Origin: Candidatus Campbellbacteria bacterium
GTDB taxonomy: Bacteria; Patescibacteriota; Minisyncoccia; Phycocordibacterales; JABAAK01
Direction of reading: 5' to 3'
Assembly (NCBI GenBank): GCA_028817035.1
Contig: JAPPQH010000008.1
Location: 1-55,443, forward strand
Length of the DNA: 55,443 nucleotides
Below the pieces are notes generated by a model. The model ran no database searches. It saw only the letters and a list, made by a program, of their open reading frames with translations, and had not been told where the DNA came from. This document shows, one piece after another, positions 3,815-48,360 of this stretch; position 1 is the stretch's first letter, and each line of letters begins with the position of its first letter. Position numbers and translations under genes: made by a program.

Positions 3815-3995
3815 ATGGGTAATTTTTATATGGGTAATATTACAATAAACTTTTATATTAATTTACACTAATATGATAAAACATACCATAGAAATTGCAA
3901 GTGTTTTGTGAAAGTATGTTTATATGTGGAAAATCAGCACTTTTTCAAAGTATTTCCCCCATTTTGTCAACCCAATCAGTTCCTCTGCTGCTTCT

Positions 3996-4187
3996 ATTTA
4001 CTATCGCTCGTGGCTTCGCCACTCGCTTGATTTTGCTCGCAGTCGCTCACTCCGTTCGCTTCTATTTACTATCGCTCGCTCGTTCCACTCGCTCGCTTGA
4101 CGCAACTCGCAAGCTCGTTGCGGTCGGACTTGGACTCTTGCAACCTATCACTTGCGCTTGGTCGCTTTATGCAAGTGGAAAATGTGA
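3996..4187 (-). repeat. Dispersed hairpin repeat block R1 (only copy in reverse orientation)
   Basis: This gap of about 390 bases between the divergent genes at 3814 and 4201 is mostly filled by the repeat family seen at 7029, 14920, 16205, 17665, 22318, 26222 and 33766, here inverted. Read on the minus strand it contains the family core (CCGACCGCAACGAG, GTTGCGTCAAGCGAG, GATAGTAAATAGAAGCGAACGG) and a terminal hairpin GTGGCGAAGCCAC. It supplies a spurious open frame in front of the NYN gene. Confidence 0.8.
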
Positions 4188-4200
4188 TATATTTAGGAAG

Positions 4201-4719
4201 ATGAAAAATGAAAAAGAGAGAAAGATGGAAAAGAACATTGCTTTTATAGATGGACAGAATTTACATCTTGGGATAAGAGATCTTAATTGGAAATTAAATC
4301 ACAATAAATTTAGAACATATCTGAAAGAAAGATATAAGGTTTGTGAAGCCAATTATTTCCCTGGATTTTTTATGGAAGATTTTCAAGATTTGTATAAAAA
4401 ATTACAAGAAGCGGGTTTCTTATTAACTTTTAAAAAACATACTGAATTACACCAATCTAAGAAAAAAGGTAATGTAGACACTTTGATGGTATTTGAAGTT
4501 ATGAAAACTTTAAATGAAAGGTCTGATGAGTTTGATTCAATAATTCTTGTTACTGGTGATGGTGATTTTTATGAATTGGTTAGTTATCTTATTAAAAAGA
4601 AAAGATTAAAGAAAATTTTATTTCCGAGCGGTAAACAAAGTTCATCTTTGTATAATAAATTGGATAATAAGTATAAGCACAGTCTTAATAATTCTAAAGA
4701 AAAAATTGAGCTTAAATAA
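4201..4719 (+). CDS. NYN-domain (LabA/DUF88-like) PIN-fold ribonuclease
   Basis: Predicted 172-residue single-domain protein of the NYN family (PIN-like metal-dependent RNases such as LabA and YacP relatives). The acidic catalytic pattern is visible: FIDGQNLH with D17, NVDTLMVFE with D93, and VTGDGDFYEL with D120/D122. The frame is open further upstream, but that part is repeat R1, so the start is placed at the ATG at 4201 behind AGGAAG; an internal ATG at 4225 is an alternative that keeps the whole fold. It stands alone, convergent with the gene at 4941, with a tandem hairpin after its stop. A role in RNA cleavage is inferred from the family; the substrate is unknown. Confidence 0.82.
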   Translation: MKNEKERKMEKNIAFIDGQNLHLGIRDLNWKLNHNKFRTYLKERYKVCEANYFPGFFMEDFQDLYKKLQEAGFLLTFKKHTELHQSKKKGNVDTLMVFEVMKTLNERSDEFDSIILVTGDGDFYELVSYLIKKKRLKKILFPSGKQSSSLYNKLDNKYKHSLNNSKEKIELK

Positions 4720-4834
4720 AAATGAAAGGGGGGCGTCCTCGGCACTAACACCTTTGGAGCCCCCTTTCGTCGTGTGAAAATGAAAGGGGGGCGTCCTCGG
4801 CACTATCACCTTTGGAGCCCCCTTTCGTCGTGAT
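4719..4834. repeat. Two tandem 58-bp hairpin units (terminator-like)
   Basis: Two nearly identical 58-bp direct repeats start at the stop codon of the NYN gene. Each holds an inverted repeat GAAAGGGGG...CCCCCTTTC around a loop of about 27 bases that contains CGTCCTCGGCACTA; I see one base change between copies (CTAACACC versus CTATCACC). They lie between convergent genes and could act as a doubled bidirectional terminator, but there is no long T-run immediately after either stem. Confidence 0.75.
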
Positions 4835-4940
4835 ACATTATTTATTATATACCCTCCCCACAGAAAAAGCAAGTCCTCGCGAGATATTGTGTAAAACCTT
4901 GAAATGTAGCATTATTTCGTGGTTTTTTGGTTTTTGGGTG

Positions 4941-6979: not shown

Positions 6980-7026
6980 TATTATAATATATATATTATA
7001 ATATATTTATTATAATATATATATTA
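6980..7026. repeat. AT-only palindromic tract
   Basis: A run made only of A and T with nested palindromes built from TATTATAATATATATATTA words. It can form cruciform structures and carries TATAAT-like boxes on both strands. It lies between G-rich sequence (6895-6979) and repeat block R2. Function unknown; it may be an easily melted site or a by-product of slippage. Confidence 0.6.
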
Positions 7027-7028
7027 CA

Positions 7029-7417
7029 GGATTTGTAGGGTGTGAGTCCGACCGCAACGAGCCTGCGAGTTGCGTCAAGCGTTCAAATAGCAAAGTAATA
7101 GGTTGTAGAGATATGAGTCTGATCGCAACGAATTTATGAGTTGCGTCAAGCGAGCGAGTGGAACAAGCGAGCGATAATGAATAGAAGCGAACGGAATAGA
7201 TTGTAGAGGCATAAGTCCGACCGCGACGAATTTATGAGTTGCGTCAAGCGAGCGAGTGGAACAAGCGAGCGATAATGAATAGAAGCGAACGGAATAGGTT
7301 GGAAGAGTCCAAGTCCGACCGCAACGAGCCTGCGAGTTGCGTCAAGCGAACGGCTTTGCCGTTCGCGTTAATAAAAAGGAAGCGAAGGAGCGAGGCGGTG
7401 AAACCGCCGAGCGACTG
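7029..7417 (+). repeat. Dispersed hairpin repeat block R2, four tandem units, abutting tRNA-Thr
   Basis: Four consecutive copies of the dispersed unit. The anchor word TTGCGTCAAG recurs at 7070, 7141, 7239 and 7337; the last two intervals are exactly 98 bases and the first is 71. Each unit has a left part (GTAGAGGYATRAGTCYGAYC, GCAACGA..TATGAGTTGCGTCAAG) and a right part (AGCGAGTGGAACAAGCGAGC, GATAATGAATAGAAGCGAAC). The right end carries the hairpins AACGGCTTTGCCGTT and GGCGGTGAAACCGCC. The block stops exactly at the 3' end of tRNA-Thr. Confidence 0.85.
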
Positions 7418-13638: not shown

Positions 13639-13720
13639 ATATAAAATAATTTTAGCATATAAATATGGAAGAAAATGCCCCACTTGCGACCGAGGGTCGT
13701 GTGGTGTGATGGCGAAGAAA

Positions 13721-13775
13721 AAAGAAAACCCCTACCTAATACCAATCGTCTATGACGACCAGTATAGGTAGGGGC
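13721..13775 (-). terminator. Intrinsic terminator of lipoprotein gene 13790-14704
   Basis: On the minus strand, CCCCTACCTATAC...GTATTAGGTAGGGG forms a long stem followed by TTTTCTTTTTTC. The outer arm CCCCTACC recurs in the terminators at 16438 and 17831. Confidence 0.85.
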
Positions 13776-13789
13776 AAGTAAGAACAGTG

Positions 13790-14704
13790 TCAGTTGCAAG
13801 AGCCCGCAGTGCCAGGTGCCAAACCGAGATCACATGCTTCACCAGCACTTGGGGCAGCGGCAGCAGGAGTTCTCCTCTTGCTGGAGCCACCACCAAAGAT
13901 CATCTCGGCAGCGACTGCGGCGGTGATTATCACCACCGTGACACACCACACACGATTTCCACGGCAATAGTCGCTGATTGTTGACTTGACGCCCGCAAAA
14001 AACGACCTATCATTCGTGAATGCCCTGCAACTATTTTCAGAGTTCTGCCCTCCTTGGCAAATGTCTGGCTTGAGGTAGGTATAACCGTCCTTGAGGTATT
14101 CCCTCTTGTACTCATCATAAGTCCTAACTCCAGCCACCTCGACGAATCCATCGCTCTTGATCTTGCTGACGATAATGCCGTTAGACACGATGTCGCCATC
14201 TTTGTTCAAGACGAATGGAATATTTTTCACAATCTCGTCATCCCTGTTGATATGGATAAACACGCCAAAGGTTGTCGTGTATCCCTCGTAAGGATGACAT
14301 ATCTGGTCTTCCCCTGCCTTTTTGCAGAAAAACTCTGGGTCGACATCCATCGTCAAGGTTTGAACATGAACATGACTGTCCCTCTCAAATTGCTTGGTCA
14401 GCAACATGCTCCAATGATTTTTGTTTTTGGGGTGAGGGATCAAGCGAGTGATCAAAAAGGTTTTCCCGTCGTAGGAAACTTGATGACCTTTCTCTTTGCT
14501 ACTCATCGTCTTGAAAGACAAAGGGTTAGCAAGCACATCCTTGATGTTATGGGTTTTGGTGGCGATGAAGTTCATCTCATCCTTCCACTTCATAGCTTGA
14601 TCGTTGCTGGTATCCATCAGACTTCCACCACAACCACCCATAAGGAGGGTGAAGGCGGTGGTGAGAAACAGAACGAGAGACCGCGAACGGCGAATACGGT
14701 GCAT
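13790..14704 (-). CDS. Lipoprotein of unknown function, paralogue A
   Basis: 304 residues; no named family recognised. Start chosen at 14704 because TTAGGAGGTGTGCT sits just before it and because the next residues form a lipoprotein signal (RRSRSLVLFLTTAFTL, lipobox LMGGC). The body has an alternating hydrophobic pattern (FGVFIHINRDDEIVKNIPFV). Near the C-terminus are a hydrophobic helix (VWCVTVVIITAAVAAEMIF) and a tail ending in CDLGLAPGTAGSCN. The gene at 15111 is a clear paralogue: the signal peptide and the last 15 or so codons are almost identical while the middle differs. Single-gene unit with its own promoter, leader and terminator. Confidence 0.8.
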   Translation of the reverse strand: MHRIRRSRSLVLFLTTAFTLLMGGCGGSLMDTSNDQAMKWKDEMNFIATKTHNIKDVLANPLSFKTMSSKEKGHQVSYDGKTFLITRLIPHPKNKNHWSMLLTKQFERDSHVHVQTLTMDVDPEFFCKKAGEDQICHPYEGYTTTFGVFIHINRDDEIVKNIPFVLNKDGDIVSNGIIVSKIKSDGFVEVAGVRTYDEYKREYLKDGYTYLKPDICQGGQNSENSCRAFTNDRSFFAGVKSTISDYCRGNRVWCVTVVIITAAVAAEMIFGGGSSKRRTPAAAAPSAGEACDLGLAPGTAGSCN

Positions 14705-14868
14705 AGCACACCTCCTAAGTTTTTGCGAATACAGAAAGGTAGATGATTTGCGGAATTGCAACCCATCGGTGAATTCCTGTGTCCTGTGACACAATGTCCT
14801 TTTGTGAAAGAACATTTGGGGCAATGCCCAACTACTTATATGATGTCATATCTAAAGAAAATTGTCAA
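14705..14868 (-). promoter_or_regulatory. Promoter and conserved structured leader of 13790-14704
   Basis: A TTGACA box is at 14863-14868 (minus strand). The -10 is imperfect (CATCAT at 14840-14845 with 17-bp spacing, or the nearby TATAAG). The transcript leader, roughly 14720-14838, shows four stem-loops in order: TTGGG/CCCAA, TGTTCTTT-CACA-AAAGGACA, TGTGTC-ACAG-GACACA and TTGC-AATTCC-GCAA. The same series precedes the genes starting at 16013 and 17462, and partly the one starting at 20277. It ends in AGGAGG. Confidence 0.75.
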
Positions 14869-14919
14869 TATGGGGTGGCGAAAGGGTCGCGTGGTGTGAT
14901 GGCGAAGGAGTGCGAGATG

Positions 14920-15050
14920 TGGGGCGAACGGAATAGGTTGCTGAGGCATAAGTCCGACCTTTGCGACGAATTTATGAGTCGCGTGAAGCGAGTGGCGAAG
15001 CCACGAGCGATAATAAAATAGAAGCGAACGGCAAAACCGTTCGCGATAAT
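14920..15050 (+). repeat. Dispersed hairpin repeat block R3
   Basis: One full unit: GAATAGGTTGCTGAGGCATA, AGTCCGACCTTTGCGACGAA, TTTATGAGTCGCGTGAAGCG, then hairpins GTGGCGAAGCCAC and AACGGCAAAACCGTT, ending GCGATAATAAAAAAG. It runs directly into the T-tract of the terminator of the gene at 15111. A G-rich stretch (14871-14925) separates it from the promoter of the gene starting at 14704. Confidence 0.8.
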
Positions 15051-15095
15051 AAAAAAGAGGGGCGTTTGGCTGGTGTAAAACCAACCAAACGCCCA
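15050..15095 (-). terminator. Intrinsic terminator of lipoprotein gene 15111-16013
   Basis: GGGCGTTTGGTTGGT pairs with ACCAGCCAAACGCCC on the minus strand (15 bp with one mismatch or wobble), followed by CTCTTTTTTATT. Confidence 0.88.
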
Positions 15096-15110
15096 GTAAA
15101 AAGAACAGTG

Positions 15111-16013
15111 TCAGTTGCAAGAGCCCACGGTGCCAGGTGGCAAACCGAGATCGCAGGCAGCACCTCCGCCTCCGCCACCACCAGGGGCAGCAGCAGGAGT
15201 GGATTTGGAGTTGGAACCACCGTCTAGCAGTTCAAAACCAGCCCAGACGACAAGCGCAGTGCCGAGTATGCACTTAACGGGATTCCTTACGCACTTACCC
15301 CAAAGATCTGCGAACCCGCCAGCGAATAGACCGTCCACAACCTTGTCGGTGGTTGCTTCACAGCCTTCGCCAGTGTCACATCCCTTGGGATAGATAACGT
15401 CGTACCCGCCCTTTTCGTAACGGCTAAGAAACTCACTGCGAGGCATAACTCCAACAACTGTGACAACCCCACTTGTCTCATCAATCTTGCTGACAAGGGC
15501 GGGGTCGAGTATGATGTTGCCATCCCTATCCAAGGCGAAATACTCCTTCTTTATGCGATCCCCATCTATGTTGTGATGGATAAACATGCCGAAGGTTACT
15601 TTGTATCCGCCAGAAAAAGGACGGCATGTCCCACTCTCTGCCTCTTGGCAAAATCTCTCTGGGGGAAGATGTTCCCCAAAAGTGTTTACCAAAACCCAGC
15701 CCTTACCAGCATTCCTGACAAGAGCTATACCCAACCTGTCATGGTTTTCACTGTTCATACGAGAGAGATGAAATATCTCTTCGTTGAAAGAAACCTTGAA
15801 ACCCGCTCCGTCGCCTTCCTTCACCTCATAACGATCGGGATCGGCAAACACCTGCTTGAGGGGAACGGTATCATAAGGGAAATGCAGATTTCTCCGCCAT
15901 TCATCAGCCTGCTTGGAATCAACATTCTTGATCCCAGCACAGCCACCCATAAGGAGGGTGAAGGCGGTGGTGAGAAACAAAACGAGAGTCCGCAAACGGA
16001 AAGAATATCGCAT
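15111..16013 (-). CDS. Lipoprotein of unknown function, paralogue B
   Basis: 300 residues. Start at 16013 is set by the TTAGGAGGTGAAGCT ribosome site and by the lipobox (LRTLVLFLTTAFTLLMGGCAG). It shares with paralogue A the signal peptide, a central FGMFIHHNIDGDRI-like segment, a late hydrophobic helix (CILGTALVVWAGFELL), a Ser/Pro/Gly linker with a glycine run, and the tail CDLGLPPGTVGSCN. Four to six cysteines suggest disulphides outside the membrane. The function of the family is unknown; anchoring in the membrane with both conserved ends exposed is inferred. Confidence 0.8.
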   Translation of the reverse strand: MRYSFRLRTLVLFLTTAFTLLMGGCAGIKNVDSKQADEWRRNLHFPYDTVPLKQVFADPDRYEVKEGDGAGFKVSFNEEIFHLSRMNSENHDRLGIALVRNAGKGWVLVNTFGEHLPPERFCQEAESGTCRPFSGGYKVTFGMFIHHNIDGDRIKKEYFALDRDGNIILDPALVSKIDETSGVVTVVGVMPRSEFLSRYEKGGYDVIYPKGCDTGEGCEATTDKVVDGLFAGGFADLWGKCVRNPVKCILGTALVVWAGFELLDGGSNSKSTPAAAPGGGGGGGAACDLGLPPGTVGSCN

Positions 16014-16178
16014 AGCTTCACCTCCTAAGTTTTTGCGAATGCAGAAAGGTAGATGAGTTGCGGAATTGCAACCCACCAACGAATTCCTGTGTCCTATGAC
16101 ACAATGTCCTTTTGTGAAAGAACATTTGGGGCAATGCCCAACTACTTATATATTATCATATCCCCCAAAATATGTCAA
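16014..16178 (-). promoter_or_regulatory. Promoter and conserved structured leader of 15111-16013
   Basis: -35 TTGACA (16173-16178) and -10 TAATAT (16150-16155) with 17-bp spacing on the minus strand. The leader repeats the four hairpins described for 14705-14868; the third loop is ATAG instead of ACAG and the fourth stem is extended to GTTGC-AATTCC-GCAAC. The core at 16081-16150 differs from that of paralogue A at only a few positions. Confidence 0.85.
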
Positions 16179-16204
16179 GCGATGGGTGAAGGGGTGGCAA
16201 GGCG

Positions 16205-16437
16205 TGGGGGCGAGTGATGGTTTGAGGAGTATAAGCCCGACCTTTGCGAGCCTGCGAGTAAGCATGGAAACGAAATCGGCGGGTTGGAGGGCGTGAAACT
16301 TGACCTTTGCGAGCCTGCGAGCAAAATCAAGCGAGGCAACGAAGTTGCCAAGCGATAATGAATAGAAGCGAACGAAGTGAGCGATTGCGAGTTGCATCAA
16401 GCGAGTGGCGAAGCCACGAGCGATAATAATATAGAAA
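16205..16437 (+). repeat. Dispersed hairpin repeat block R4
   Basis: Two to three fused units of the family in plus orientation, with variant left arms (GGTTGGAGGGCGTGAAACTT, GACCTTTGCGAGCCTGCGAG) and right hairpins GGCAACGAAGTTGCC and GTGGCGAAGCCAC. A variant word GAGTAAGCATGGAAACGAAA also occurs in block R7. The block ends GATAATAATATAGAAAAAAA, merging with the T-tract of the terminator at 16438. Confidence 0.8.
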
Positions 16438-16482
16438 AAAAGAAGCCCCTACCGACGACCGAAGTCGTTTATGGTAGGGGCC
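16438..16482 (-). terminator. Intrinsic terminator of gene 16503-17462
   Basis: Minus strand: GGCCCCTACC pairs with GGTAGGGGC, with an inner stem CGAC-TTCG-GTCG, followed by TTCTTTTTTTCT. Confidence 0.88.
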
Positions 16483-16502
16483 AATTGACTCACCGCCTGT
16501 CC

Positions 16503-17462
16503 TTAGCGAAAATGTACATTCTCGCCTTCAAGGTTGAGAAATGACGATGTACCCGCTTGCTGGGGCTGAGAGCCTTTCGGCTTCCCTGCATCAGCATTTT
16601 GCGGAGACCGTTGTGTCGTCCCTCCAGCCACACACTCAATGAGTTTTCTACCGGCCTCATCTTTTTGGGCAATGGCATTATTTTTTTCGGAAAGGAGGAG
16701 TTTGATGACACCCTGCAGACGGACAATCTCTTGCTCCGCGCTGCCCAACCTTGCCTCCGTGATGCCCAACTTTGCCACAAGTTCCTCCGCCAGTTCCTTG
16801 CAGTTTCTATCCCCCTTAGTAGTGGGATCAGAAATGATGCAAGATTCGGATACCTTCTGTTTGAGGGCATTCTCAAGCTCGCTAACCCTTTGAGCCAACT
16901 TAGTCGTCAGCTCTTCGCAGTCCACAAGCTCCCTAGAGTAGGGATCTGTGCAAGATTCGGGTATCACCAAAGGCTCAGGACATGCCATAGGCTCGGACCC
17001 CTCTTGATAGGGATAACAAGCAGCACACTGCTTGATTTCCTCAAACCCCTGTTGCAACTCCTCGGAAGTGACGCATTGAGATTCTGTCTGCAAAGGTCCC
17101 TCTCGCAGAGAGTTCTCTTGAAGAATAGCTATCCCCTCGGAGTTCTCCTCGAATTTCTCCTTGATGTCTTCTACCATCGGCATAAGATGTCCAACAAAGA
17201 AAAACGCTGTCAAAAGGATGGAGATAGCCATCAAACCGCTGAACCAGGAAATTGCCCGAAATATGCTTGTCATTTCTTTGAAACAGCCCTCAAAATCTCC
17301 TCTCAGTTCGGAAATTTGGTTGGCAAAGATATCACCCGGTTGAACCTTCGGTTGAACCTTCTTGGTGCCAGGACTACCCTTACCATCTCCGCTCTGGTTG
17401 GGGTCTTGGGTTTCTTCTGCTCCGCTTCCCGCAAATACTGTCGTATTGTCGTCGTTAGCCAT
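16503..17462 (-). CDS. Single-pass membrane protein with coiled coil, unknown function
   Basis: 319 residues, no known family recognised. Acidic/Ser-Gly N-terminus, one membrane segment around residues 72-92 (WFSGLMAISILLTAFFFVGHL), then a cysteine-containing acidic region (QCAACYPYQEGSEPMACPEP) and a coiled coil at about residues 180-275 (LTTKLAQRVSELENALKQKV, GSAEQEIVRLQGVIKLLLSE). The tail is low complexity. Start at 17462 is fixed by AAGGAGGTGCACT. Base composition is more G/C-rich than in the neighbouring core genes. Topology resembles the gene at 17891 (N-terminal membrane anchor plus coiled coil), although sequences differ. Confidence 0.72.
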   Translation of the reverse strand: MANDDNTTVFAGSGAEETQDPNQSGDGKGSPGTKKVQPKVQPGDIFANQISELRGDFEGCFKEMTSIFRAISWFSGLMAISILLTAFFFVGHLMPMVEDIKEKFEENSEGIAILQENSLREGPLQTESQCVTSEELQQGFEEIKQCAACYPYQEGSEPMACPEPLVIPESCTDPYSRELVDCEELTTKLAQRVSELENALKQKVSESCIISDPTTKGDRNCKELAEELVAKLGITEARLGSAEQEIVRLQGVIKLLLSEKNNAIAQKDEAGRKLIECVAGGTTQRSPQNADAGKPKGSQPQQAGTSSFLNLEGENVHFR

Positions 17463-17633
17463 AGTGCACCTCCTTACTTTGGATGCTTTTGGTTTAGATG
17501 ACCGAAAGAAGATGAATTGCAGAATTGCAACCCATCGGTGAATTCCTGTGTCTATGACACAATGTCCTTGTGAAAGAACATTTGGGATTAACCCAACTGC
17601 TTGTATATTATCATATCACAAAAAATATGTCAA
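17463..17633 (-). promoter_or_regulatory. Promoter and conserved structured leader of 16503-17462
   Basis: -35 TTGACA (17628-17633), 17-bp spacer, -10 TAATAT (17605-17610). The leader has the same hairpin series as in front of the two lipoproteins, with changes that keep pairing: TTGGG-TTAAT-CCCAA, TGTTCTT-TCAC-AAGGACA, TGTGTC-ATA-GACACA, TTGCA-ATTC-TGCAA. The encoded protein is unrelated to the lipoproteins. Confidence 0.85.
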
Positions 17634-17664
17634 GCAGAGGGGTGAGAGGGTTGCGGAGTGTGGG

Positions 17665-17830
17665 GCGAGTGATGGTTTGTAGAGGTATGAGTCTGACCGC
17701 AACGAGCTTGCGAGGCAAGTCAAGTGTTCAAATAGTGAAGTAATGGGTTGGAGGTCGTGAAACTTGACCTTTGCGAGCCTGCGAGCAAAATCAAGCGAGG
17801 CAACGAAGTTGCCGAGCGATAATAAAATAG
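17665..17830 (+). repeat. Dispersed hairpin repeat block R5
   Basis: Two partial units: GTGATGGTTTGTAGAGGTAT, GAGTCTGACCGCAACGAGCT, then GTTGGAGGTCGTGAAACTTG and a right end with hairpin GGCAACGAAGTTGCC followed by GAGCGATAATAAAATAG. It runs straight into the terminator T-tract of the gene at 17891. Confidence 0.8.
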
Positions 17831-17874
17831 AAAAAAGAAGCCCCTACCGCGACCAAAGGTCTTGGTAGAGGCTA
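17831..17874 (-). terminator. Intrinsic terminator of gene 17891-18751
   Basis: AGCCTCTACC pairs with GGTAGGGGCT around an inner GACC/GGTC stem on the minus strand, then TTCTTTTTTCT. Nearly the same outer arm as at 16438. Confidence 0.85.
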
Positions 17875-17890
17875 GTAACCACTGGATCAC

Positions 17891-18751
17891 TTAGAGATTT
17901 GTGCTACCAGTCAGCTGATAGTGTGACACGGAGCCAGTCCTATTTTCCTTTCCTTCCTTTTCAGGAGGGGGAGGATCTACAGGAAGAACCGTTGGAGGAT
18001 CTCGATGGATAACCTCCACAGTAGGTCCGTTTTGAGGAGCCGCGGAGACATCAGGCACACCCAACAACGATGCTGTCGCTCCGCCGTTGGGATTTCCCTT
18101 GCCGTTGAGGCCTTTGAGATAACACCATGCCATAAGGGCATCAGTGTGCTTCTCGCTGACAAGCCGAAGCAGGCTGTTTTCGTGATTTTGCAAAGTAGCC
18201 TGTGCGTCCTGCAACTCCATCTTTGTCCCATCCAAGTGTCGGGTCAAGGCCGCAACTTGTTGGGTCAAGGCCATATTCTTTTGGGTGAGAGAACCGTTGA
18301 CTTTCTGCAGACGGGCAACCTCTTGCTCCTCTTTTTTGAGTCGCTCTTCAGAGACAAACTCGCCCTCAGGGAAATTAATCACACAATTGTGTTCAATATC
18401 CCCAACGGCATTGCCCTCGGCTACCTTAGCCACAACCTCTTTCTGATCCGCCCCCATCTTCTCTATGATTTCAAGGAAACGCTCCCGGGCATCTGCCAAC
18501 TCCGCTTGCGTGGTCGCCACTTTTGCCCTCAGGTCATCTGTCTCTTCTCGCGAGGAGAAATTCGAAAACAGATAGCCGAGGAGGAAAAAGCCAGCGGCTG
18601 CAAGGGTGTAGCAAATGGGTCGCTGAATTGCCCCCCACGCACCAAGCATGAGAGAAAACATCCACGACCAGAAGCTCTTCCACATATTCCGAAACTGCCT
18701 TACGAAGCGCTGAAAATGACTCCGAGGAGTCTTCTTTTTGGACTTACTCAT
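17891..18751 (-). CDS. Membrane-anchored coiled-coil protein, unknown function
   Basis: 286 residues. The start at 18751 follows GGAGGTACCCTG. Basic N-terminus (SKSKKKTPRSHFQRFVRQF), two closely spaced hydrophobic segments around residues 30-65 (SWMFSLMLGAWGAI, CYTLAAAGFFLLGYLFS), then coiled coil from about 70 to 205 (ETDDLRAKVATTQAELADAR, KEEQEVARLQKVNGSLTQKN). The C-terminus is rich in Pro/Gly/Asn. No family recognised. Similar plan to the upstream unit at 16503, so the two may be functionally related. Confidence 0.72.
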   Translation of the reverse strand: MSKSKKKTPRSHFQRFVRQFRNMWKSFWSWMFSLMLGAWGAIQRPICYTLAAAGFFLLGYLFSNFSSREETDDLRAKVATTQAELADARERFLEIIEKMGADQKEVVAKVAEGNAVGDIEHNCVINFPEGEFVSEERLKKEEQEVARLQKVNGSLTQKNMALTQQVAALTRHLDGTKMELQDAQATLQNHENSLLRLVSEKHTDALMAWCYLKGLNGKGNPNGGATASLLGVPDVSAAPQNGPTVEVIHRDPPTVLPVDPPPPEKEGKENRTGSVSHYQLTGSTNL

Positions 18752-18900
18752 CAGGGTACCTCCTTTTGGTATTCTGTGAAACAACCCTAAGTGGTTGCTG
18801 AGAATCGCAAGTGAAACTTACAACTCTCTTTGTTGATGTTCAGTAGCTAAGGAAACCTTAGCCTCACTTATATAGTATCATATTTGCCAAAATATGTCAA
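18752..18900 (-). promoter_or_regulatory. Promoter and hairpin-rich leader of 17891-18751
   Basis: -35 TTGACA (18895-18900), 17-bp spacer, -10 TACTAT (18872-18877). The leader is different in sequence from that of the three preceding units but also starts with a stable stem-loop (GCTAAGG-TTT-CCTTAGC) just after the expected start point, and ends in AAAAGGAGGTACC. Confidence 0.8.
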
Positions 18901-18959
18901 TATGCGGGGTGGAGGGAGAAAGAGAGGGAGAAAGGAGGGCGAGGAGCGAGAGAGGGGGC

Positions 18960-18996
18960 AAAAAATAAAGCCCTGTTTTGAGGGGCTTTATTTTTG
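18960..18996. terminator. Bidirectional intrinsic terminator after 19019
   Basis: AAATAAAGCCC-TGTTTTGA-GGGGCTTTATTTTT: a GC core flanked by A and T runs, usable from both sides. It serves the minus-strand gene at 19019. Between it and the -35 at 18895 lies only a purine-rich G/A tract (18901-18958). Confidence 0.85.
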
Positions 18997-19018
18997 TTGT
19001 GCTTTTTGAAAGCGGGTT

Positions 19019-19756
19019 TTACTGTGTTGGTCCGTTAAGCGTGACTCTCAAGAGATCGTCTGTGAGCTGTGGGTGTACTATCACAACTGCTCTTGGTTCA
19101 GTTGCAACTCCGTTGTCTAAGTTTTCCTCAAGACTACGAGATGGGTCAGGCTGTCCGCCTGCAAAACCACTGCCAATCTCTGTGTTTTCCTCAGTTCCTG
19201 CATCGTGATTTTCTGCGATGAAACTTCTGTTTATGTTTCCAGGTAGCAGAGAGGTCGTTGCAAAAACATAACCGTCATTTGAAGCTACTGCCATTTGAAG
19301 GACTGATAATTGTGGTTCTGTCTCGCCTGTTAAGTAAGGTATTTCAGGTGGAAGTTCAACAACTTTGCTTTGACCTGGTTCAATCGGACTATCAACTGGT
19401 ATCGCGTAAAATACCGTGGGATCTCTATCAATTGATAGCAAGAAAGGTCCTGGCTCACCAACTTCTGCGAGTAATTCAAACTCTGGAGGAGCAATCTCTC
19501 CCTTGAAATCAAAATCAACAGAAGAATCATGGATTAGTATCACACCTTGGGATAGTGGTTGTGAGTCACTTAGGTTCTCAAGTGTTAATGAGAGTCCTCG
19601 GAGAAATTTTACATCTTCTTCAACTGTTGGCTCTACTACGACTTCGTCTGAAGAATCGCGGAAGAAGAAATAGTAGATGACTGTTCCGATTATTATAAGA
19701 ATAATAATCCATAGAACTACGCCTCCTGACTCGTAATTTGTTTTTTCGTTTTTCAT
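19019..19756 (-). CDS. Membrane-anchored Spondin_N-domain protein
   Basis: 245 residues. One N-terminal membrane segment (GVVLWIIILIIIGTVIYYFFF), then a single domain with the hallmarks of bacterial Spondin_N proteins: SLTLENLSDSQPLSQGVILIHD, a long acidic middle (PPEFELLAEVGEPGPFLLSI), the MAVASNDGYVFATTS block, and the late YDAGTEEN-type motif (here NHDAGTEENTEIGSG) with VVIVHPQL near the end. Such domains are thought to be extracellular binding modules, some metal-binding. Function in this organism is unknown. Weak ribosome site, unlike the cassette genes on either side. Confidence 0.78.
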   Translation of the reverse strand: MKNEKTNYESGGVVLWIIILIIIGTVIYYFFFRDSSDEVVVEPTVEEDVKFLRGLSLTLENLSDSQPLSQGVILIHDSSVDFDFKGEIAPPEFELLAEVGEPGPFLLSIDRDPTVFYAIPVDSPIEPGQSKVVELPPEIPYLTGETEPQLSVLQMAVASNDGYVFATTSLLPGNINRSFIAENHDAGTEENTEIGSGFAGGQPDPSRSLEENLDNGVATEPRAVVIVHPQLTDDLLRVTLNGPTQ

Positions 19757-19871
19757 ATTTATGAATATAATAAATAAACTTAAGTTTAAGTTTTAATGAT
19801 TTGGGATTTACCAACGCTTTTGCGATGATAAATAAACTATATCTTATAGAGAGATATGTGTAAACAAGAGA

Positions 19872-19915
19872 GAAAAAGACCCCTGCCCATATGAAGTCAT
19901 GGGCAGGGGTCTTTT
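19872..19915 (-). terminator. Intrinsic terminator of gene 19924-20277
   Basis: AAAAGACCCCTGCCCAT...ATGGGCAGGGGTCTTTT, a nearly perfect 17-bp stem; the minus strand continues with TTTTTCTCTC. Confidence 0.9.
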
Positions 19916-19923
19916 GGACGAGG

Positions 19924-20277
19924 CTATTGCGGAGCGGTGTCCTCGTTGGCGGGCTTGTCACTTTCTACAAAGATGTCTACACAGGTTTCTTTTCCTCCTG
20001 AGATGTGGTGCAACTGTGCGCACTCTACCCTCTTGAGGTCTTGCAAAAAGCGTTCAATAGCAACAAGGCGTTCATTGAACTCCTTTTGTGTCGTCAACAT
20101 CTCTTTCCGTGTTTTCTGGATACGCTCTTCAAGTGCATGCCAATTCAACTCTGAATCGGGGGTTTTTAGTTTTGCTTCTTCAGGATAAACGATGATACCC
20201 AATACAAGCCCAACAGCTAAGAAACCAAGAAATACACCCATAACATTAACATCGCAAAAAGACTGAAATTTTGACAT
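19924..20277 (-). CDS. Small membrane-anchored coiled-coil protein
   Basis: 117 residues. Start at 20277 behind GGAGGTGTTGTGCA. One membrane segment (VMGVFLGFLAVGLVLGIIVY) near residues 12-31, then a helical coiled-coil stretch (LEERIQKTRKEMLTTQKEF, RLVAIERFLQDLKRVE) and an acidic tail with one cysteine. Same overall plan, in miniature, as the proteins at 16503 and 17891. No family recognised. Its leader is partly shared with the lipoprotein and 16503 units. Confidence 0.72.
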   Translation of the reverse strand: MSKFQSFCDVNVMGVFLGFLAVGLVLGIIVYPEEAKLKTPDSELNWHALEERIQKTRKEMLTTQKEFNERLVAIERFLQDLKRVECAQLHHISGGKETCVDIFVESDKPANEDTAPQ

Positions 20278-20434
20278 TGCACAACACCTCCACGGGTTTC
20301 TGTTGCGGACGACCTTTGAGATAAAGGTCTTGAAAAAGCGCTCTTGTGTCTTTGACACGATGCCCTTTTGTGAAAGAACATTTGGGCTTGACCCAACTAA
20401 TTTGTATATTAGAGTATTAAAATTGCCCTGTCAA
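20278..20434 (-). promoter_or_regulatory. Promoter and conserved structured leader of 19924-20277
   Basis: -35 TTGACA (20429-20434), 17-bp spacer, -10 TAATAT (20406-20411). The first three leader hairpins match the other units, with compensating or neutral changes: TTGGG-TCAAG-CCCAA, TGTTCTTT-CACA-AAAGGGCA, GTGTC-AAA-GACAC. The fourth is replaced by GACCTTT-ATCTC-AAAGGTC. Confidence 0.85.
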
Positions 20435-20451
20435 ACATAAATAATTTTGAA

Positions 20452-20482
20452 AAGAAAAAGCCCTCGGTGAACGAGGGCTTTG
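20452..20482 (-). terminator. Intrinsic terminator of gene 20500-21198
   Basis: AAAGCCCTCG-TTCA-CCGAGGGCTTT on the minus strand, followed by TTCTTTTC. Confidence 0.88.
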
Positions 20483-20499
20483 AAATCGCGAAGAGGACA

Positions 20500-21198
20500 T
20501 CATCCGACACCTTTCGCTACACCATTTTGGTTTGAGGTGCTGGGGTAAATCGCACTACCACCCCGAAGTTCTGCCAAACGAGTTTTGGCTTCTTCGGCCT
20601 GTTCTCTATGCCATTGCTCAGACGGTTTGAGGCTGCATACCCACCTTAGGTATTGCCTTTCAGACTTAAACCTTCCTTCCAAAAGCCGCTTGATGCAATG
20701 GAGTGACAGGTATTGACCCCCTTCTTGAAAACCGTCTTGTTTTATCAAGTGCAGAACATCGTGAGTGATTCCGAAGTCACTGGGATCCTTGTTCCACTTC
20801 GCATGTCTACAAAAATCCTCAACAAGACGATTACAGCCGTATGCATTTTTCGTCTTTATGGCTGTGTCAAGGGCTAAGAAGTAGAGCTTCTTGAGCCAGT
20901 CATACATTTCACTCTTCCAAAGTGGGTGTGTGATTGTGGAGAGGCCACCTATGAAGTGGCTGTGTTCCATGTGGTTTTGTCTCCGAGCATCAAGGAAAAT
21001 GTTTAGCGATTTTTCTACTAAGTTTTTATTGATACTCTTCATGCATATGAATTGGTAGACGATATGTGAAATCGCACCTACATTTTTGACGGAGACATTT
21101 TTAACCCACTCAATCACCTCATTCGTCGGCTCCCCCTTTTTCAGCATTCTTCTCAGTTGCTCCACAATGTGACTGTGGGGTTGCACTTCTTGACGCAT
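20500..21198 (-). CDS. Hypothetical helical protein
   Basis: 232 residues, soluble, no signal or membrane segment, no family recognised. Rich in amphipathic helices with Trp/His/Leu (SEMYDWLKKLYFLALDTAIK, FKSERQYLRWVCSLKPSEQW), which may indicate an alpha-solenoid. Start at 21198 follows CAGGAGGGAGTGTT. It is its own transcription unit, with promoter and terminator. Composition and signals match the neighbouring single-gene units rather than the core genes. Confidence 0.72.
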   Translation of the reverse strand: MRQEVQPHSHIVEQLRRMLKKGEPTNEVIEWVKNVSVKNVGAISHIVYQFICMKSINKNLVEKSLNIFLDARRQNHMEHSHFIGGLSTITHPLWKSEMYDWLKKLYFLALDTAIKTKNAYGCNRLVEDFCRHAKWNKDPSDFGITHDVLHLIKQDGFQEGGQYLSLHCIKRLLEGRFKSERQYLRWVCSLKPSEQWHREQAEEAKTRLAELRGGSAIYPSTSNQNGVAKGVG

Positions 21199-21283
21199 AA
21201 CACTCCCTCCTGTTTTTGAGTTTGTCTGTGACGGTTTTCAAGTGCGGATTTGTCCATCTTTGTAAGGAACAATTCCATATTAA

Positions 21284-21312
21284 TAATAAAATATCTGTAT
21301 GTCTTTGTCAAA
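21284..21312 (-). promoter_or_regulatory. Promoter of gene 20500-21198
   Basis: Minus strand TTGACA (21307-21312), 17-bp spacer, TATTAT (21284-21289). About 85 bases of leader follow before AGGAGG; no conserved hairpin series is seen in it. Confidence 0.8.
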
Positions 21313-21340
21313 ATTTGTGTGGGGTCAATGGACATGTCTA

Positions 21341-21388
21341 AAAAGTTGAGACCCACACAGGATGCTGTAACACATCCCGTGTGGGTCA
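21341..21388 (-). terminator. Intrinsic terminator of gene 21418-21759
   Basis: GACCCACACGGGATG pairs with CATCCTGTGTGGGTC (14 of 15), followed by TCAACTTTTTAG on the minus strand. Confidence 0.82.
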
Positions 21389-21417
21389 AAAGTCGGACTT
21401 GGTAGTCCCCTTCTGCT

Positions 21418-21759
21418 TCAGGTCTTGTGGACCATCTGCTTTCTCGGCAAGAAGGAGGACAACCAATTCCTGAAATTGCTCCAGAGCCTGGACATCCAGG
21501 ATTGGTGGGTCGGCTGTTGGGTCGGGAGTTGGAGCTCGGGATGCCACTTGGCTGCTATAGACATAAAGTGTATCATGCCTGCACCCCTCTTCAAATTGTA
21601 GACGGTTTCGCGAAGCTTCTTCATACCGCCTTTGAAAGAACCCTTCTGACAGATCACACCGATTATACCCCGAACCATTTTCTTTTGGTCTTCGGAAATT
21701 CCGAATCCCAGCAATCCCTTAAGATCGCTCAAAGCCACCGCTCTCTGCTGATTGGTCAT
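21418..21759 (-). CDS. Small hypothetical protein
   Basis: 113 residues, basic, with no clear membrane segment; a helical N-terminal half (SDLKGLLGFGISEDQKKMVR, GGMKKLRETVYNLKRGAG) and a Trp/Gln/Pro-rich C-terminus (SWMSRLWSNFRNWLSSFLP) that could be a membrane-binding amphipathic helix. No family recognised. Start supported by ACAGGAGGAAACGGAGAA. Single-gene unit. Confidence 0.68.
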   Translation of the reverse strand: MTNQQRAVALSDLKGLLGFGISEDQKKMVRGIIGVICQKGSFKGGMKKLRETVYNLKRGAGMIHFMSIAAKWHPELQLPTQQPTHQSWMSRLWSNFRNWLSSFLPRKQMVHKT

Positions 21760-21842
21760 TTCTCCGTTTCCTCCTGTTGAAAAAGTTCATTGGCAATATT
21801 GCCATCTTCTATAATGGTACTATAAACTCTTTGATTTGTCAA
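21760..21842 (-). promoter_or_regulatory. Promoter and short leader of gene 21418-21759
   Basis: TTGACA (21837-21842), 17-bp spacer, TACCAT (21814-21819; a nearby TTATAG is an alternative). The leader begins with the perfect palindrome GGCAATATTGCC and ends with AGGAGG. Confidence 0.75.
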
Positions 21843-21869
21843 GCAAGGGGTGAGAGGAAGTTGGACAAG

Positions 21870-21897
21870 GAAAGGGGCAGACATCTTTGTCTGCCCC
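21870..21897 (-). terminator. Intrinsic terminator of gene 21907-22185
   Basis: GGGGCAGACA-AAGA-TGTCTGCCCC, a perfect 10-bp stem, then TTTCCTT on the minus strand. Confidence 0.88.
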
Positions 21898-21906
21898 AAC
21901 TTGGTC

Positions 21907-22185
21907 TTACACGACGTAGGCATTGAGCTCTGACCTCATTTTCTCCGAGTCGGTTACCAAGCCATCTGCCCGAAGAGATGCCTTGATTGCCAAACCAAGA
22001 TTTCCATTTCTCAGATGCTCGTCTGCTTTGTCTAACACTGCACCTGCCTTTCTGGCTCCATCGCCATACACAGAAGAGCCATCACTTGCCAGCACCCTTT
22101 TTCTACGACCGTTCACATAGTCAATGTGATTATCTACAATCGAGCAAAGGTCTTTCGCGCCCACACCTTCTATTGTGATATTCAT
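21907..22185 (-). CDS. Small hypothetical protein
   Basis: 92 residues, no family recognised. The start is placed at 22185, after AATAGGAGGAAGTGTT; a longer frame upstream would read through the leader hairpins. It reads as a compact soluble helical protein: MNITIEGVGAKDLCSIVDNH, then a helix pair around GARKAGAVLDKADEHLRNGN and LAIKASLRADGLVTDSEKMR, resembling a short TPR-like hairpin. Single-gene unit with near-consensus promoter. Confidence 0.7.
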   Translation of the reverse strand: MNITIEGVGAKDLCSIVDNHIDYVNGRRKRVLASDGSSVYGDGARKAGAVLDKADEHLRNGNLGLAIKASLRADGLVTDSEKMRSELNAYVV

Positions 22186-22302
22186 AACACTTCCTCCTAT
22201 TTTGAAAAATCGGTCCGCAATTGTCTCCAACTGCGTGGTGAGTTGGAGGTCGTCAAAGACCATCCCGCTATTAATTATAGGTCATATAAGTATTTTTGTC
22301 AA
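22186..22302 (-). promoter_or_regulatory. Consensus promoter and hairpin leader of gene 21907-22185
   Basis: TTGACA (22297-22302), 17-bp spacer, TATAAT (22274-22279): a perfect sigma-70 consensus on the minus strand. The leader carries GGTC-TTTGAC-GACC and CTCCAACT-CACCACGC-AGTTGGAG before AGGAGG. Confidence 0.88.
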
Positions 22303-22317
22303 GCAACCAAGCAAAAG

Positions 22318-22410
22318 TGATGGTTTGTAGAGGTATGAGTCTGATCGCAACGAATTTATGAGTTGCGTCAAGCGAGGCGGTGAAACCGCCGAGCGATAAT
22401 AAATAAGGAG
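22318..22410 (+). repeat. Dispersed hairpin repeat block R6, abutting tRNA-Met
   Basis: A single unit: GTGATGGTTTGTAGAGGTAT, GAGTCTGATCGCAACGAATT, TATGAGTTGCGTCAAGCGAG, hairpin GGCGGTGAAACCGCC, GAGCGATAATAAATAAGGAG. It ends exactly at the tRNA-Met discriminator base and begins about 15 bases beyond the -35 box of the preceding unit. Confidence 0.85.
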
Positions 22411-24607: not shown

Positions 24608-24649
24608 GAAAAATTATAGCCCACTGGAGGGAGAATTCCAGCGGGCTAT
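24608..24649 (-). terminator. Intrinsic terminator of small gene 24660-24830
   Basis: ATAGCCCGCTGGA...TCCAGTGGGCTAT stem on the minus strand followed by AATTTTTC. Confidence 0.82.
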
Positions 24650-24659
24650 GAACAGCAAT

Positions 24660-24830
24660 TTAAGGTAGGACGACAAGGTCGCCTTCGCGTCTTGCCCTTT
24701 GTCGTTCATCCCTCATAAAGTCGTGTGCCGTCGCGGTGTTGGTGGTGTTGTTGGTTTTTCCTCTCTTGTCGGAAAAATTGACACTGAGGACATTCCCCAC
24801 CGAGTTTTTGCCACCCATCTCGTTCCCCAT
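24660..24830 (-). CDS. 56-residue hypothetical protein (single-gene unit)
   Basis: A short gene easily missed by length filters. ATG at 24830 follows GATGGAGGTGAAAA, an ideal ribosome site; the product starts MGNEMGGKNSVGNVLSVNFS, continues through an Asn/Thr run (KTNNTTNTATAHDF) and ends in a charged segment (MRDERQRARREGDLVVLP). It has a promoter and an intrinsic terminator like the units between 13721 and 22302. Function unknown; low complexity suggests a disordered peptide. Confidence 0.65.
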   Translation of the reverse strand: MGNEMGGKNSVGNVLSVNFSDKRGKTNNTTNTATAHDFMRDERQRARREGDLVVLP

Positions 24831-24926
24831 TTTTCACCTCCATCTTTGACTTCTTTCCTCTAAAAAGTGCATGTTTGGATTTTTACAATCCTGCTTTCAT
24901 TTTAATAATATATTTTCTCCTGTCAA
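24831..24926 (-). promoter_or_regulatory. Promoter of 24660-24830
   Basis: Minus-strand TTGACA (24921-24926), 16-bp spacer, TAAAAT (24899-24904). A leader of about 65 bases ends in GGAGG. Confidence 0.75.
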
Positions 24927-33765: not shown

Positions 33766-33987
33766 TTGGAGGGCGTGAAACTTGACCTTGCCGAGCCTGC
33801 GAGGCAAGTCAAGCGAGTGGCGAAGCCACGAGCGATAATAAAATAGAAGCGAACGGAGTGAGCGATTGCGAGTTGCGTCAAGCGACTAAGCGCAAATGAT
33901 AGGTTGTAGAGGTATGAGTCCGACCGCAACGAATTTATGAGTTGCGGTCAAGCGAACAGCGGAGCTGTTCGCGTTAATAAATAGAAA
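33766..33987 (+). repeat. Dispersed hairpin repeat block R8
   Basis: Two units. The first has left arm GGAGGGCGTGAAACTTGACC and hairpin GTGGCGAAGCCAC, then AGCGAACGGAGTGAGCGATT. The second has GGTTGTAGAGGTATGAGTCC, GACCGCAACGAATTTATGAG and the hairpin AACAGCGGAGCTGTT, ending GCGTTAATAAATAG. It merges with the terminator of the gene at 34034, as in blocks R3 to R5. Confidence 0.85.
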
Positions 33988-34019
33988 GGCGGTTCGGTAC
34001 TGGGTAGTACCGAACCGCC
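33985..34019 (-). terminator. Intrinsic terminator of gene 34034-34939
   Basis: GGCGGTTCGGTACTA...TAGTACCGAACCGCC-type stem (about 13 bp) followed by TTTCTATTT on the minus strand; the T-rich end is shared with repeat R8. Confidence 0.85.
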
Positions 34020-34033
34020 GGAAACACAAGGCT

Positions 34034-34939
34034 TCAAGCTGCTTTCGCGAATTTCTTCTCTCTATTTACGAACGCAGTCTCGAACCTTTCACACAGGGAT
34101 TCTGGAAAGTTTGGGTGGCGAGCAATCTCTTCAACATCTGAGAAACGAAAACAGCCTCCAGATTTGCGTGCTGCCTCAAAAGCCCTCTCCAAGTCTTTGG
34201 AAGATAGATTCGGATTTTCCCAAAAGGGACGAATAGGTCCTACAAAGAACTGGTAACTGAGATTGGTTACCTTCAAGTACAAAGTGAGAGCCTTTGACAA
34301 AACACCAGGTGGGGTTGCGTGGTTGCGTGCAAGGATTCCAATGAATCTCTCAAGCACATCCCGGTCCTTGGTGGCATGGGCGAAAAATTTGCCTTCAAAG
34401 AGATCCCTATACATCGACGCCGTCAAGTCCTTGCGAGCAGCAATTGACATCACGATTCCCTTGCCAAAGTAGAGCTTGCCATCATCGCTGTTCATTTTCT
34501 TTAGCACTCCTTTGACAATGCTACGCGGACATTGTGGGTGCCTTACAATTACCTCACAGACTTTTTTCCCTTTGCCCATAAGTCCGTACAAGTAACGAAA
34601 CAGCCCATCTGGCACGACCTCAATCTCGTGAAAGCAGTCCAGTATCACCCGAAGCCCGAGATGACGCTTGGCTACTGACAGAAGAATAAAGGGTGTCCTG
34701 TTTGGGTTTCTGACGATTTCCCTAAGACACTCTTTTTCGTCGCCACGCAAACAAGCATCAAACCCCTCTTCATCATCAAGATGAATGAGACCGAGGGCAA
34801 CCATTAAGACTTTCTCTGTCGCGTTTTTGTGACGAATCACTTCGTCCCAATTAACGCTAACCGGAACATCTCCCCTCAAAATCTCTACAAGGTCTTTCGG
34901 GGTTGCTTTGGGATTTATCAAACTTGGTTTTTCGGACAT
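34034..34939 (-). CDS. LRV-like alpha-solenoid repeat protein (single-gene unit)
   Basis: 301 residues. Start at 34939 after ATGGAGGTACCAACT. It contains spaced repeats of the form (I/L)-A/V-R-(H/N)-P-(N/x)-x-P-x-x-(L/I): IVRNPNRTPFILLSVAK, IVRHPQCPRSIVKGVLK, LARNHATPPGVLSKALT, FWENPNLSSKDLERAFE, IARHPNFPESLCERFET. This resembles the variant leucine-rich (LRV) solenoid, a protein-binding scaffold. No catalytic part is visible. Promoter, leader and terminator match the units between 13721 and 22302, far from here, which argues for a common origin of these units. Confidence 0.75.
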   Translation of the reverse strand: MSEKPSLINPKATPKDLVEILRGDVPVSVNWDEVIRHKNATEKVLMVALGLIHLDDEEGFDACLRGDEKECLREIVRNPNRTPFILLSVAKRHLGLRVILDCFHEIEVVPDGLFRYLYGLMGKGKKVCEVIVRHPQCPRSIVKGVLKKMNSDDGKLYFGKGIVMSIAARKDLTASMYRDLFEGKFFAHATKDRDVLERFIGILARNHATPPGVLSKALTLYLKVTNLSYQFFVGPIRPFWENPNLSSKDLERAFEAARKSGGCFRFSDVEEIARHPNFPESLCERFETAFVNREKKFAKAA

Positions 34940-35066
34940 AGTTGGTACCTCCATCCATGATAACCATTTAGAAAACACTTCGAGGTTAATAAATAACCCC
35001 TTAGGAACAATACAGACTTTCATCTGCACTGTTTATTAATATATAAAAATATCAAATTTTTGTCAA
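34940..35066 (-). promoter_or_regulatory. Promoter and hairpin leader of gene 34034-34939
   Basis: TTGACA (35061-35066), 17-bp spacer, TATATT (35038-35043) on the minus strand, starting immediately after the groEL stop codon at 35069. Leader hairpins: CAGTGCAGA-TGAAAG-TCTGTATTG and GGGGTTA-TTTAT-TAACCTC, then GGAGG. Confidence 0.82.
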
Positions 35067-44423: not shown

Positions 44424-44467
44424 AAAATAAGAGCCTCTGTTTTCCCTTTTGGGGGGAAAACAGAGGC
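44424..44467 (-). terminator. Intrinsic terminator of gene 44467-44808
   Basis: GCCTCTGTTTTCCCCCC...GGGAAAACAGAGGC, a 14-bp stem starting at the stop codon, followed by TCTTATTTTTTTAT on the minus strand. Also lies just after the EEP gene stop on the other strand. Confidence 0.88.
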
Positions 44468-44808: not shown

Positions 44809-44884
44809 AACACTTCCTCCTTTTTGCGTATAAAGAACGCCTAATAATATTTATACTACAAAAAAGGTGATATGTGATAAAAAA

Positions 44885-48214: not shown

Positions 48215-48360
48215 AAATCCTCATTTATAAGTCTCCCCAACTCTTTTTTGAGGACTTTTTGTTTGTTTCGCTCTGCCTTCCAACCCGTGAGGTTTGCCAA
48301 AAGCTGGACAAGTGTCGCAAGACCAGAGAGTGCTATAATGTAGAGCAAGAAATGGGTCAT
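48211..48360 (-). CDS. Possible 49-residue membrane peptide, doubtful
   Basis: Minus-strand frame MTHFLLYIIALSGLATLVQL followed by ANLTGWKAERNKQKVLKKEL: one hydrophobic helix and a basic tail, which is a believable small membrane protein. However, its ATG lies inside the duplicated tRNA-Gln segment, there is no ribosome site, and the stop overlaps the end of the gene on the other strand. It may be the fragment of a gene cut by the tRNA duplication. Confidence 0.3.
   Translation of the reverse strand: MTHFLLYIIALSGLATLVQLLANLTGWKAERNKQKVLKKELGRLINEDF

Follow-up and report, generated by a model that had tools for sequence, protein, structure and literature searches.

The stretch of DNA analysed here (the window) is contig JAPPQH010000008.1 of a Candidatus Campbellbacteria bacterium, 55443 nucleotides (nt) long; it is contig C8 of the genome under study (G000, 566 kb). 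Between 13720 and 22302 the window contains a run of eight single-gene transcription units, each consisting of a promoter (TTGACA and a -10 box with 17 nt between them), a leader, a GGAGG Shine-Dalgarno (SD) box, one open reading frame (ORF) and a terminator. The first-pass annotation had described this format correctly but counted seven units. Two of the additional units proposed there, at 24660 and 34034, also fit the format, whereas the one at 44467 has an SD box and a terminator but a poor -35 box. The units, with their candidate boxA elements, and the dispersed repeat found between them are as follows.

13720-14868, minus strand, u1: promoter 14868-14840 (TTGACA-17-CATCAT), hairpin, boxA TGTTCTTTCACAA at about 14814, AGGAGG 14716-14711, ORF 13790-14704 encoding a lipoprotein of 304 amino acids (aa), terminator at about 13774-13720.
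15060-16178, minus strand, u2: promoter 16178-16150, boxA at about 16124, AGGAGG 16026-16021, ORF 15111-16013 encoding a lipoprotein paralogue of u1 (38% identical), terminator 15094-15060.
16436-17633, minus strand, u3: promoter 17633-17605, boxA at about 17580, AGGAGG 17474-17469, ORF 16503-17462 encoding a membrane coiled-coil protein, terminator at about 16480-16440.
17830-18900, minus strand, u4: promoter 18900-18872, structured leader with no recognisable boxA, AGGAGG 18764-18759, ORF 17891-18751 encoding a membrane coiled-coil protein, terminator at about 17873-17833.
19874-20434, minus strand, u5: promoter 20434-20406, boxA at about 20380, GGAGG at about 20291-20287, ORF 19924-20277 encoding a one-helix membrane protein, terminator 19915-19874.
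20457-21311, minus strand, u6: promoter 21311-21283 (TTGACA-17-TATTAT), boxA variant TGTTCCTT, AGGAGG 21211-21206, ORF 20500-21198, terminator 20481-20457.
21350-21842, minus strand, u7: promoter 21842-21814, hairpin, boxA variant TGAACTTTTTCAA, AGGAGG, ORF 21418-21759, terminator 21387-21350.
21874-22302, minus strand, u8: promoter 22302-22274 (TTGACA-17-TATAAT, 12/12), boxA core TGGTCTTT, AGGAGG 22198-22193, ORF 21907-22185, terminator 21897-21874.
24616-24926, minus strand, u9: promoter 24926-24899 (16-nt spacer), boxA variant TGCACTTT, GGAGG, ORF 24660-24830 (56 aa), terminator 24649-24616.
33982-35066, minus strand, u34: promoter 35066-35038, leader with no clear boxA, GGAGG, ORF 34034-34939 encoding a predicted helical-repeat protein (modest-confidence model), terminator at about 34020-33982; between a LemA-like gene and groEL.
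44425-44870, minus strand, u44: poor -35 box, TATAAAT-like -10 box, small hairpin with TTCTTT, AGGAGG 44821-44816, ORF 44467-44808, terminator at about 44468-44425; the weakest member of the set.
16181-16436, strand not assigned, dispersed repeat filling the gap from the u3 terminator to the u2 promoter.
14880-15059, 17640-17826, 22310-22405, 33766-33885, 3992-4112 and 7020-7410, related copies of the dispersed repeat, also present elsewhere in the genome.

The start codon of u34 is ATG at 34939, not GTG at 35029, and the gene at 19019-19756, within the run u1-u8, is not a unit. The region 13.4-25.1 kb contains 46 promoter-like and 32 terminator-like sites, against 15.7 and 11.3 expected from shuffles. 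Every unit has its own promoter, and promoters and terminators are of conventional type; consensus promoters are also present at some core genes (rpsP, groES). The dispersed repeat is tied to the gaps between units, as had been suggested: in G000 its enrichment in the intergenic DNA close to units is 4.2-fold, and 24 of 56 units, as compared with 32 of 314 core genes, have a copy at a distance of 600 bp or less. At 7000-7410 of the window a dense group of copies adjoins the tRNA-Thr gene. Several contig ends also carry dispersed repeats.

We collected GGAGG-led ORFs with conserved genes excluded from G000, where 62 were kept, and from G005, a comparison genome of the same family and another genus (580 kb readable, with two 72-kb stretches reading N), where 36 were kept. 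After doubtful cases had been dropped by hand, at least 56 units remained in G000 and 32 in G005. This census is conservative, as its filters excluded u4 and several other visible units. A unit is built of a sigma-70 promoter, mostly near-consensus, an AGGAGG-type SD box and a single ORF, in most cases an orphan; an intrinsic terminator usually follows. In G000 the units are scattered singly or in small groups among core genes and do not form a single array. This genome contains 62 matches to TTGACA-N16-18-TANNAT, as compared with 3 in the reversed control; for AGGAGG-N4-9-ATG the counts are 91 in the genome and 22 in the control.

The transcribed leaders of G000 units contain the motif TGYTCTTT above chance. 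Among 42 units picked by promoter, SD box and terminator alone, the core TGNTCTTT is present with at most one mismatch in 38 (6.9 expected from Markov-shuffled leaders) and exactly in 17 (0.43 expected), within a consensus close to TGTTCTTTTAAAA. It is situated near the 5' end of the leader or 3' of a hairpin, and in 26 of 31 testable leaders the segment preceding it folds better than 95% of its own shuffles. From its end to GGAGG there are 2-22 nt in most units, and it lies 50-100 nt from the SD box in u1-u3, u5 and the C10 trio. The leader of the single 16S ribosomal RNA (rRNA) gene of G000 has the same order of elements, TTGCAT-17-TACAAT, a hairpin and boxA GATCTTTAACA, and boxA-like sites occur in the 16S leaders of several relatives. 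NusB is encoded in G000 (PF01029, E 5e-34) and in seven of eight genomes of the family. Since the element is enriched, is laid out as in the organism's own 16S leader, and NusB is encoded, it is most simply interpreted as an rRNA-type boxA, which NusB-S10 would bind. The boxA-SD pattern is far weaker across most of the order than in G000 and G005, and thus we do not claim that the format is equally strong order-wide; the joint promoter-boxA pattern proved too strict for scanning relatives.

The same 5' blocks recur upstream of unrelated ORFs. Any two of the u1, u2 and u3 leaders have 89-94% identity (93/102 nt for u1 and u3), whereas the u3 protein aligned with the lipoproteins u1 and u2 scores no better than shuffled sequence; the first half of the u5 leader is common to u1-u3. 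Leaders of C3_18893/19672, C14_12220 and C10_27869 match at 40-42 of 46 nt, those of C14_11600 and u8 at 59 of 73, and those of C5_13417 and C9_10663 at 27 of 27, with unrelated proteins in each case. For pairs with unrelated proteins (u1/u3, u3/u5, C3/C14/C10, C14/u8, C5/C9) the leader identity is 81-100%. The alignments span the -35 region to the SD box and fade out at the start codon; in some cases 3' regions are shared between units too. Paralogous units have identical leaders and diverged coding regions, one example being a 97/97-nt leader with synonymous divergence near saturation, and two pairs of paralogues with identical leaders are in tandem (C10_58219/59192, C17_39100/39471). The leader families are lineage-specific.

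Three further loci concern the 5' block. The same 39-aa ORF, its leader and terminator nearly identical as well, is found at C12:17389 and C17:27409 and represents a unit copied to a second location. At C6:200, minus strand, in a repeat near the contig end, a consensus promoter is directly followed by a terminator hairpin, as if the cargo had been lost. On contig C1 of G146, a genome of another family (stretch L283), one promoter-hairpin-boxA-SD leader is common to two very different ORFs, encoding a secreted protein of 505 aa and, as judged by eye, a ClpP-like protein of 181 aa.

The same unit format is used in G005 with different cargo: no cargo family is common to the two unit sets. The pair a1127/b1815, conserved genes with 25% identity and GGAGG starts in both genomes, may be an exception, though it is not part of the curated sets. 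The conserved flanks are syntenic in G005 for 10 of 25 unit-bearing intervals and for 206 of 272 intervals that contain no units (p=5.6e-4), an approximate figure because the flanking ORFs, chosen automatically, include some that are antisense or that overlap with RNA genes. The gap between the genes that we take to be rpsP and khpA is 32 bp in G005, and in G000 it is 3.1 kb and contains three units with similar terminators; there, khpA is preceded by a promoter-like sequence of its own. The adjacency of these two genes presumably represents the ancestral order. The interval from the LemA-like gene to groEL, the site of u34, contains other sequence in G005 and no census unit. The first-pass annotation had described the units as modular cassettes, independently gained and lost, and this agrees with the common leaders on unrelated ORFs, the lack of a cargo family common to the two genera and the pair split by units. 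It had named full synteny and no common leader as the marks of ordinary genes; synteny with G005 is incomplete, and leaders recur on unrelated genes.

Few of 55 unit proteins have Pfam matches, which include thymidylate synthase, pyridine nucleotide-disulphide oxidoreductase, two Fis-type helix-turn-helix proteins and zinc ribbons. PADLOC likewise gave almost nothing for unit proteins, and PHROGs (E 0.001) yielded thymidylate synthase-type matches only. The unit-borne thymidylate synthase, compared with genome contigs, had a 45% match in Shewanella only, which is uninformative on origin. The structure prediction for u2 (pLDDT, the predicted local distance difference test, of 36) is not usable, and the u34 model has no significant match in PDB. 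In G005, 12 of 32 unit proteins contain LRV repeats, several of them with signal peptides. The units are indeed richer in G+C, as noted earlier (0.46 compared with 0.40 in conserved genes), and AUA makes up 0.26 of their isoleucine codons as against 0.58 in core genes. Their proline codon use follows each host genome, and thus they are not simply a common foreign pool.

Core genes in G000 mostly lack strong ribosome-binding sites, in agreement with the first-pass annotation: GGAGG precedes 3 of 314, and SD-like 4-mers 4 of 120, compared with 10 of 120 in a control window. An SD box is present in every unit, partly by definition of the census, and units read by boxA and promoter with no GGAGG filter carry it as well. 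Across 118 genomes of the order AGGAGG-N4-9-ATG occurs 5756 times, against 3644 in the control, and G000 is third by excess. In all 28 16S rRNA tails sampled in the order, including genomes with a large AGGAGG excess, CCUCC directly after helix 45 is missing. Loss of the anti-SD is already known in some Patescibacteria (PMC10783764), organisms with no anti-SD are generally reported to lack SD boxes (PMC6107228), and Campbellbacteria and Wolfebacteria are among the lineages listed as anti-SD-less (PMC6107228, PMC10783764). The 16S tail of G000 is UAUCCUGA, unlike its relatives (3' end of the 16S gene at stretch L094:10707). The median duplex energy of unit SD boxes is -7.4 kcal/mol with this tail, -11.8 kcal/mol with the canonical tail and -1.4 to -2.5 kcal/mol with the tails of family relatives. 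As UAUCCUGA pairs partly with the unit SD boxes, G000, but not G005 and others, may have a partial private SD channel. This partial anti-SD fails to explain the other genomes, and hence the SD box may also mark genes arriving from organisms with a normal anti-SD.

The sequence comparisons taken together suggest that the units are probably a modular regulon of accessory genes resident in the lineage, with cargo that changes, a 5' block that copies the layout of the rRNA leader, probable exchange by homologous recombination, and transcription tied to Nus and boxA. Each unit would be complete in itself for the transcription of one gene, its 5' block combining a sigma-70 promoter, often a hairpin, boxA near the 5' end and AGGAGG. 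NusB-S10 bound to boxA may render transcription processive or tie it to ribosome synthesis; alternatively, boxA may occlude the nearby SD box, as in the suhB gene of E. coli. In G000 the SD box may be read by the partial anti-SD. The simplest mechanism by which cargo could be swapped is homologous exchange between copies of the 5' block, of terminators and of the dispersed repeat, in which incoming DNA may also take part. Broader, and correspondingly more tentative, is the possibility that Patescibacteria possess a new class of exchangeable units, in which an rRNA-type block is joined to ever-changing orphan genes, its promoter part also drives structured non-coding RNAs (contig C9, see below), and the SD box provides a private channel amid SD-free translation of core genes.

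Several observations weigh against the modular regulon. Clear boxA elements are missing from some units (u4, u34, C15_2740), the boxA signal in G005 is weaker (10 of 18 units, 3.2 expected), few G005 promoters match the strict promoter pattern, and the G005 16S tail pairs poorly with SD boxes. Motif search of ORFs in G000 and in the readable part of G005 revealed no Rho-like ORF, and thus classical Rho antitermination is doubtful for the units. For the units, neither a recombinase, in the scan of 55 unit proteins, nor an insertion footprint was identified. Fast protein evolution under conserved leaders could mimic unrelatedness with no shuffling at all. A point in favour of the modular regulon, three pairs of close paralogues with a ratio of non-synonymous to synonymous substitution rates above 1 (p 0.01-0.03), hints at diversifying selection; these tests are uncorrected, however, and recombination may mimic the signal. 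Finally, the G000 assembly is fragmented, and hidden errors at repeats are possible.

One alternative concerns the step controlled by boxA and not the modular set as such. In E. coli, boxA in the suhB messenger RNA (mRNA) recruits the Nus complex and represses translation, and occlusion of the SD box has been demonstrated for suhB and for a ParE-like toxin gene (PMC5725501). By this precedent the Nus complex would keep the units off until rRNA synthesis titrates the Nus factors. The short distance from boxA to GGAGG in most units suits such a mechanism, whereas the longer one in u1-u3, u5 and the C10 trio does not, nor does a ribosome with no canonical anti-SD; we regard it as possible, if rather doubtful. 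It is unlikely that the units are phage- or plasmid-derived cargo, such as morons or island genes, still retaining foreign expression signals. Orphan content, the higher G+C, the low AUA usage, the autonomous promoter and terminator and a thymidylate synthase with phage-family matches are what such an origin would leave. However, PHROGs found nothing else among the 55 proteins, u2 has no match in viral contigs or phages and the run u1-u8 none in plasmids, the leader families are lineage-specific, the proline codons are those of each host, and the units are dispersed among core genes, alone or a few together. Origin from a prophage as such was rejected, given flanks formed by core genes such as rpsP/khpA and nearly no phage homology.

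Slightly less probable still are ordinary stable monocistronic genes with strong signals that are not exchanged, the leaders being alike through ancestry by duplication. The tandem paralogues with identical leaders and the conventional promoters and terminators, with consensus promoters at rpsP and groES too, are compatible with that. Against it, unrelated ORFs on different contigs have common leaders, the cargo is wholly different between genera, units split rpsP from khpA, and SD box and boxA are limited to the unit class. Canonical SD geometry in the units only, avoidance of SD boxes by core genes and a 16S lacking CCUCC across the order could also mean that the units are intended for the ribosomes of another cell, for instance a host bacterium, reading canonical SD, promoter and boxA. 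This is very improbable: no route of DNA or RNA transfer is known, boxA agrees with that of the organism's rRNA leader, the 16S tail of G000 pairs partly with the unit SD boxes, and the proline codons follow the own genome.

Compared with known systems, the modular regulon has several partial analogues. The likeness to integrons or invertrons drawn by the first-pass annotation was dropped, since the units have their own promoters, Pfam shows no recombinase among 55 unit proteins, the only part of the genome scanned in this respect, promoters are not flanked by inverted repeats, and homologous recombination would be sufficient. Integron cassettes are likewise exchangeable single-gene units of orphan function, but they are promoterless, are expressed from one common promoter and form arrays, whereas these units carry their own promoter and SD box and are scattered; this candidate was rejected, as was a phase-variable promoter of the invertron type. 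Only one distant inverted pair was found at 13.4-25 kb of the window, and none flanking promoters. Phage morons resemble the units in being single genes with their own promoter and terminator, sporadically inserted between other genes; unlike them, the units lie outside prophages, nearly all lack phage homologues and have lineage-specific common leader blocks. The rRNA operon leader (promoter, boxB hairpin, boxA) has the order of elements seen in the units and in the own 16S leader, but the units continue with AGGAGG and a protein gene instead of rRNA. In suhB-type mRNAs (Baniulyte et al. 2017, PMC5725501) boxA is also in the 5' leader near the start codon, in a genome encoding NusB. However, gammaproteobacterial genomes have 0-7 such candidates each, often Nus or translation genes (PMC5725501), whereas here there are dozens of orphan accessory genes, often with a hairpin first, behind one modular block. 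The anti-SD-less genomes of PMC6107228 and PMC10783764 similarly lack CCUCC after helix 45 and have a core with no SD boxes; here, in contrast, a minority gene class keeps strong, canonically spaced ones, a feature absent from the passages of these surveys that were consulted.

Thus neither mRNA leaders with boxA nor autonomous cargo genes are new as such. Their combination, the scale, the re-use of the module and the SD boxes in an anti-SD-less lineage are, as far as we searched the literature, new: no boxA regulon of dozens of genes was met there, and matches on boxA in Patescibacteria were all off-topic, as judged by title. The interpretation of the leader motif as boxA, the recurrence of the 5' block on unrelated ORFs and the presence of SD boxes despite loss of the canonical anti-SD go beyond the first-pass annotation. 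In Patescibacteria, a large group with few cultured members, most accessory genes are orphans, and the common leader offers a homology-free handle for finding the accessory set genome by genome. The set it marks may point to genes mediating life with other cells. The unit SD boxes challenge the rule that genomes with no anti-SD have none, and control by Nus and boxA would, if our interpretation holds, govern a large regulon and not just the few genes known so far.

Structured RNAs also have promoters of their own. At C9:3233-5045 (stretch L098:1234-3046) five structured non-coding transcripts of about 250-340 nt are arranged in tandem (folding z scores -3.7 to -6.6), each with a near-consensus promoter and a terminator; two of the five are paralogous, and none has an Rfam match. 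In promoter and first bases (TTAATAGTGGAAGG) they are similar to the protein units u8 and C14_11600. A sixth structured RNA like those of this array is found at C12:21678. Strong single promoters starting ATATATT(A/G)AGGGT are located at C5:14243 (stretch L094:13243-13380), C15:5803 (minus strand) and C17:27013, and are followed by strongly structured RNAs of 110-150 nt with no ORF or Rfam family.

Two further features were observed in the window. A transfer RNA-like Rfam match of 38 bits, not called by ARAGORN, lies at 48353-48416 on the plus strand. Downstream of the gene 3895-4719, at 4728-4835, a hairpin sequence is present in two tandem copies (GAAAGGGGGGCGTCC...CCCCCTTTCGTCGTG).

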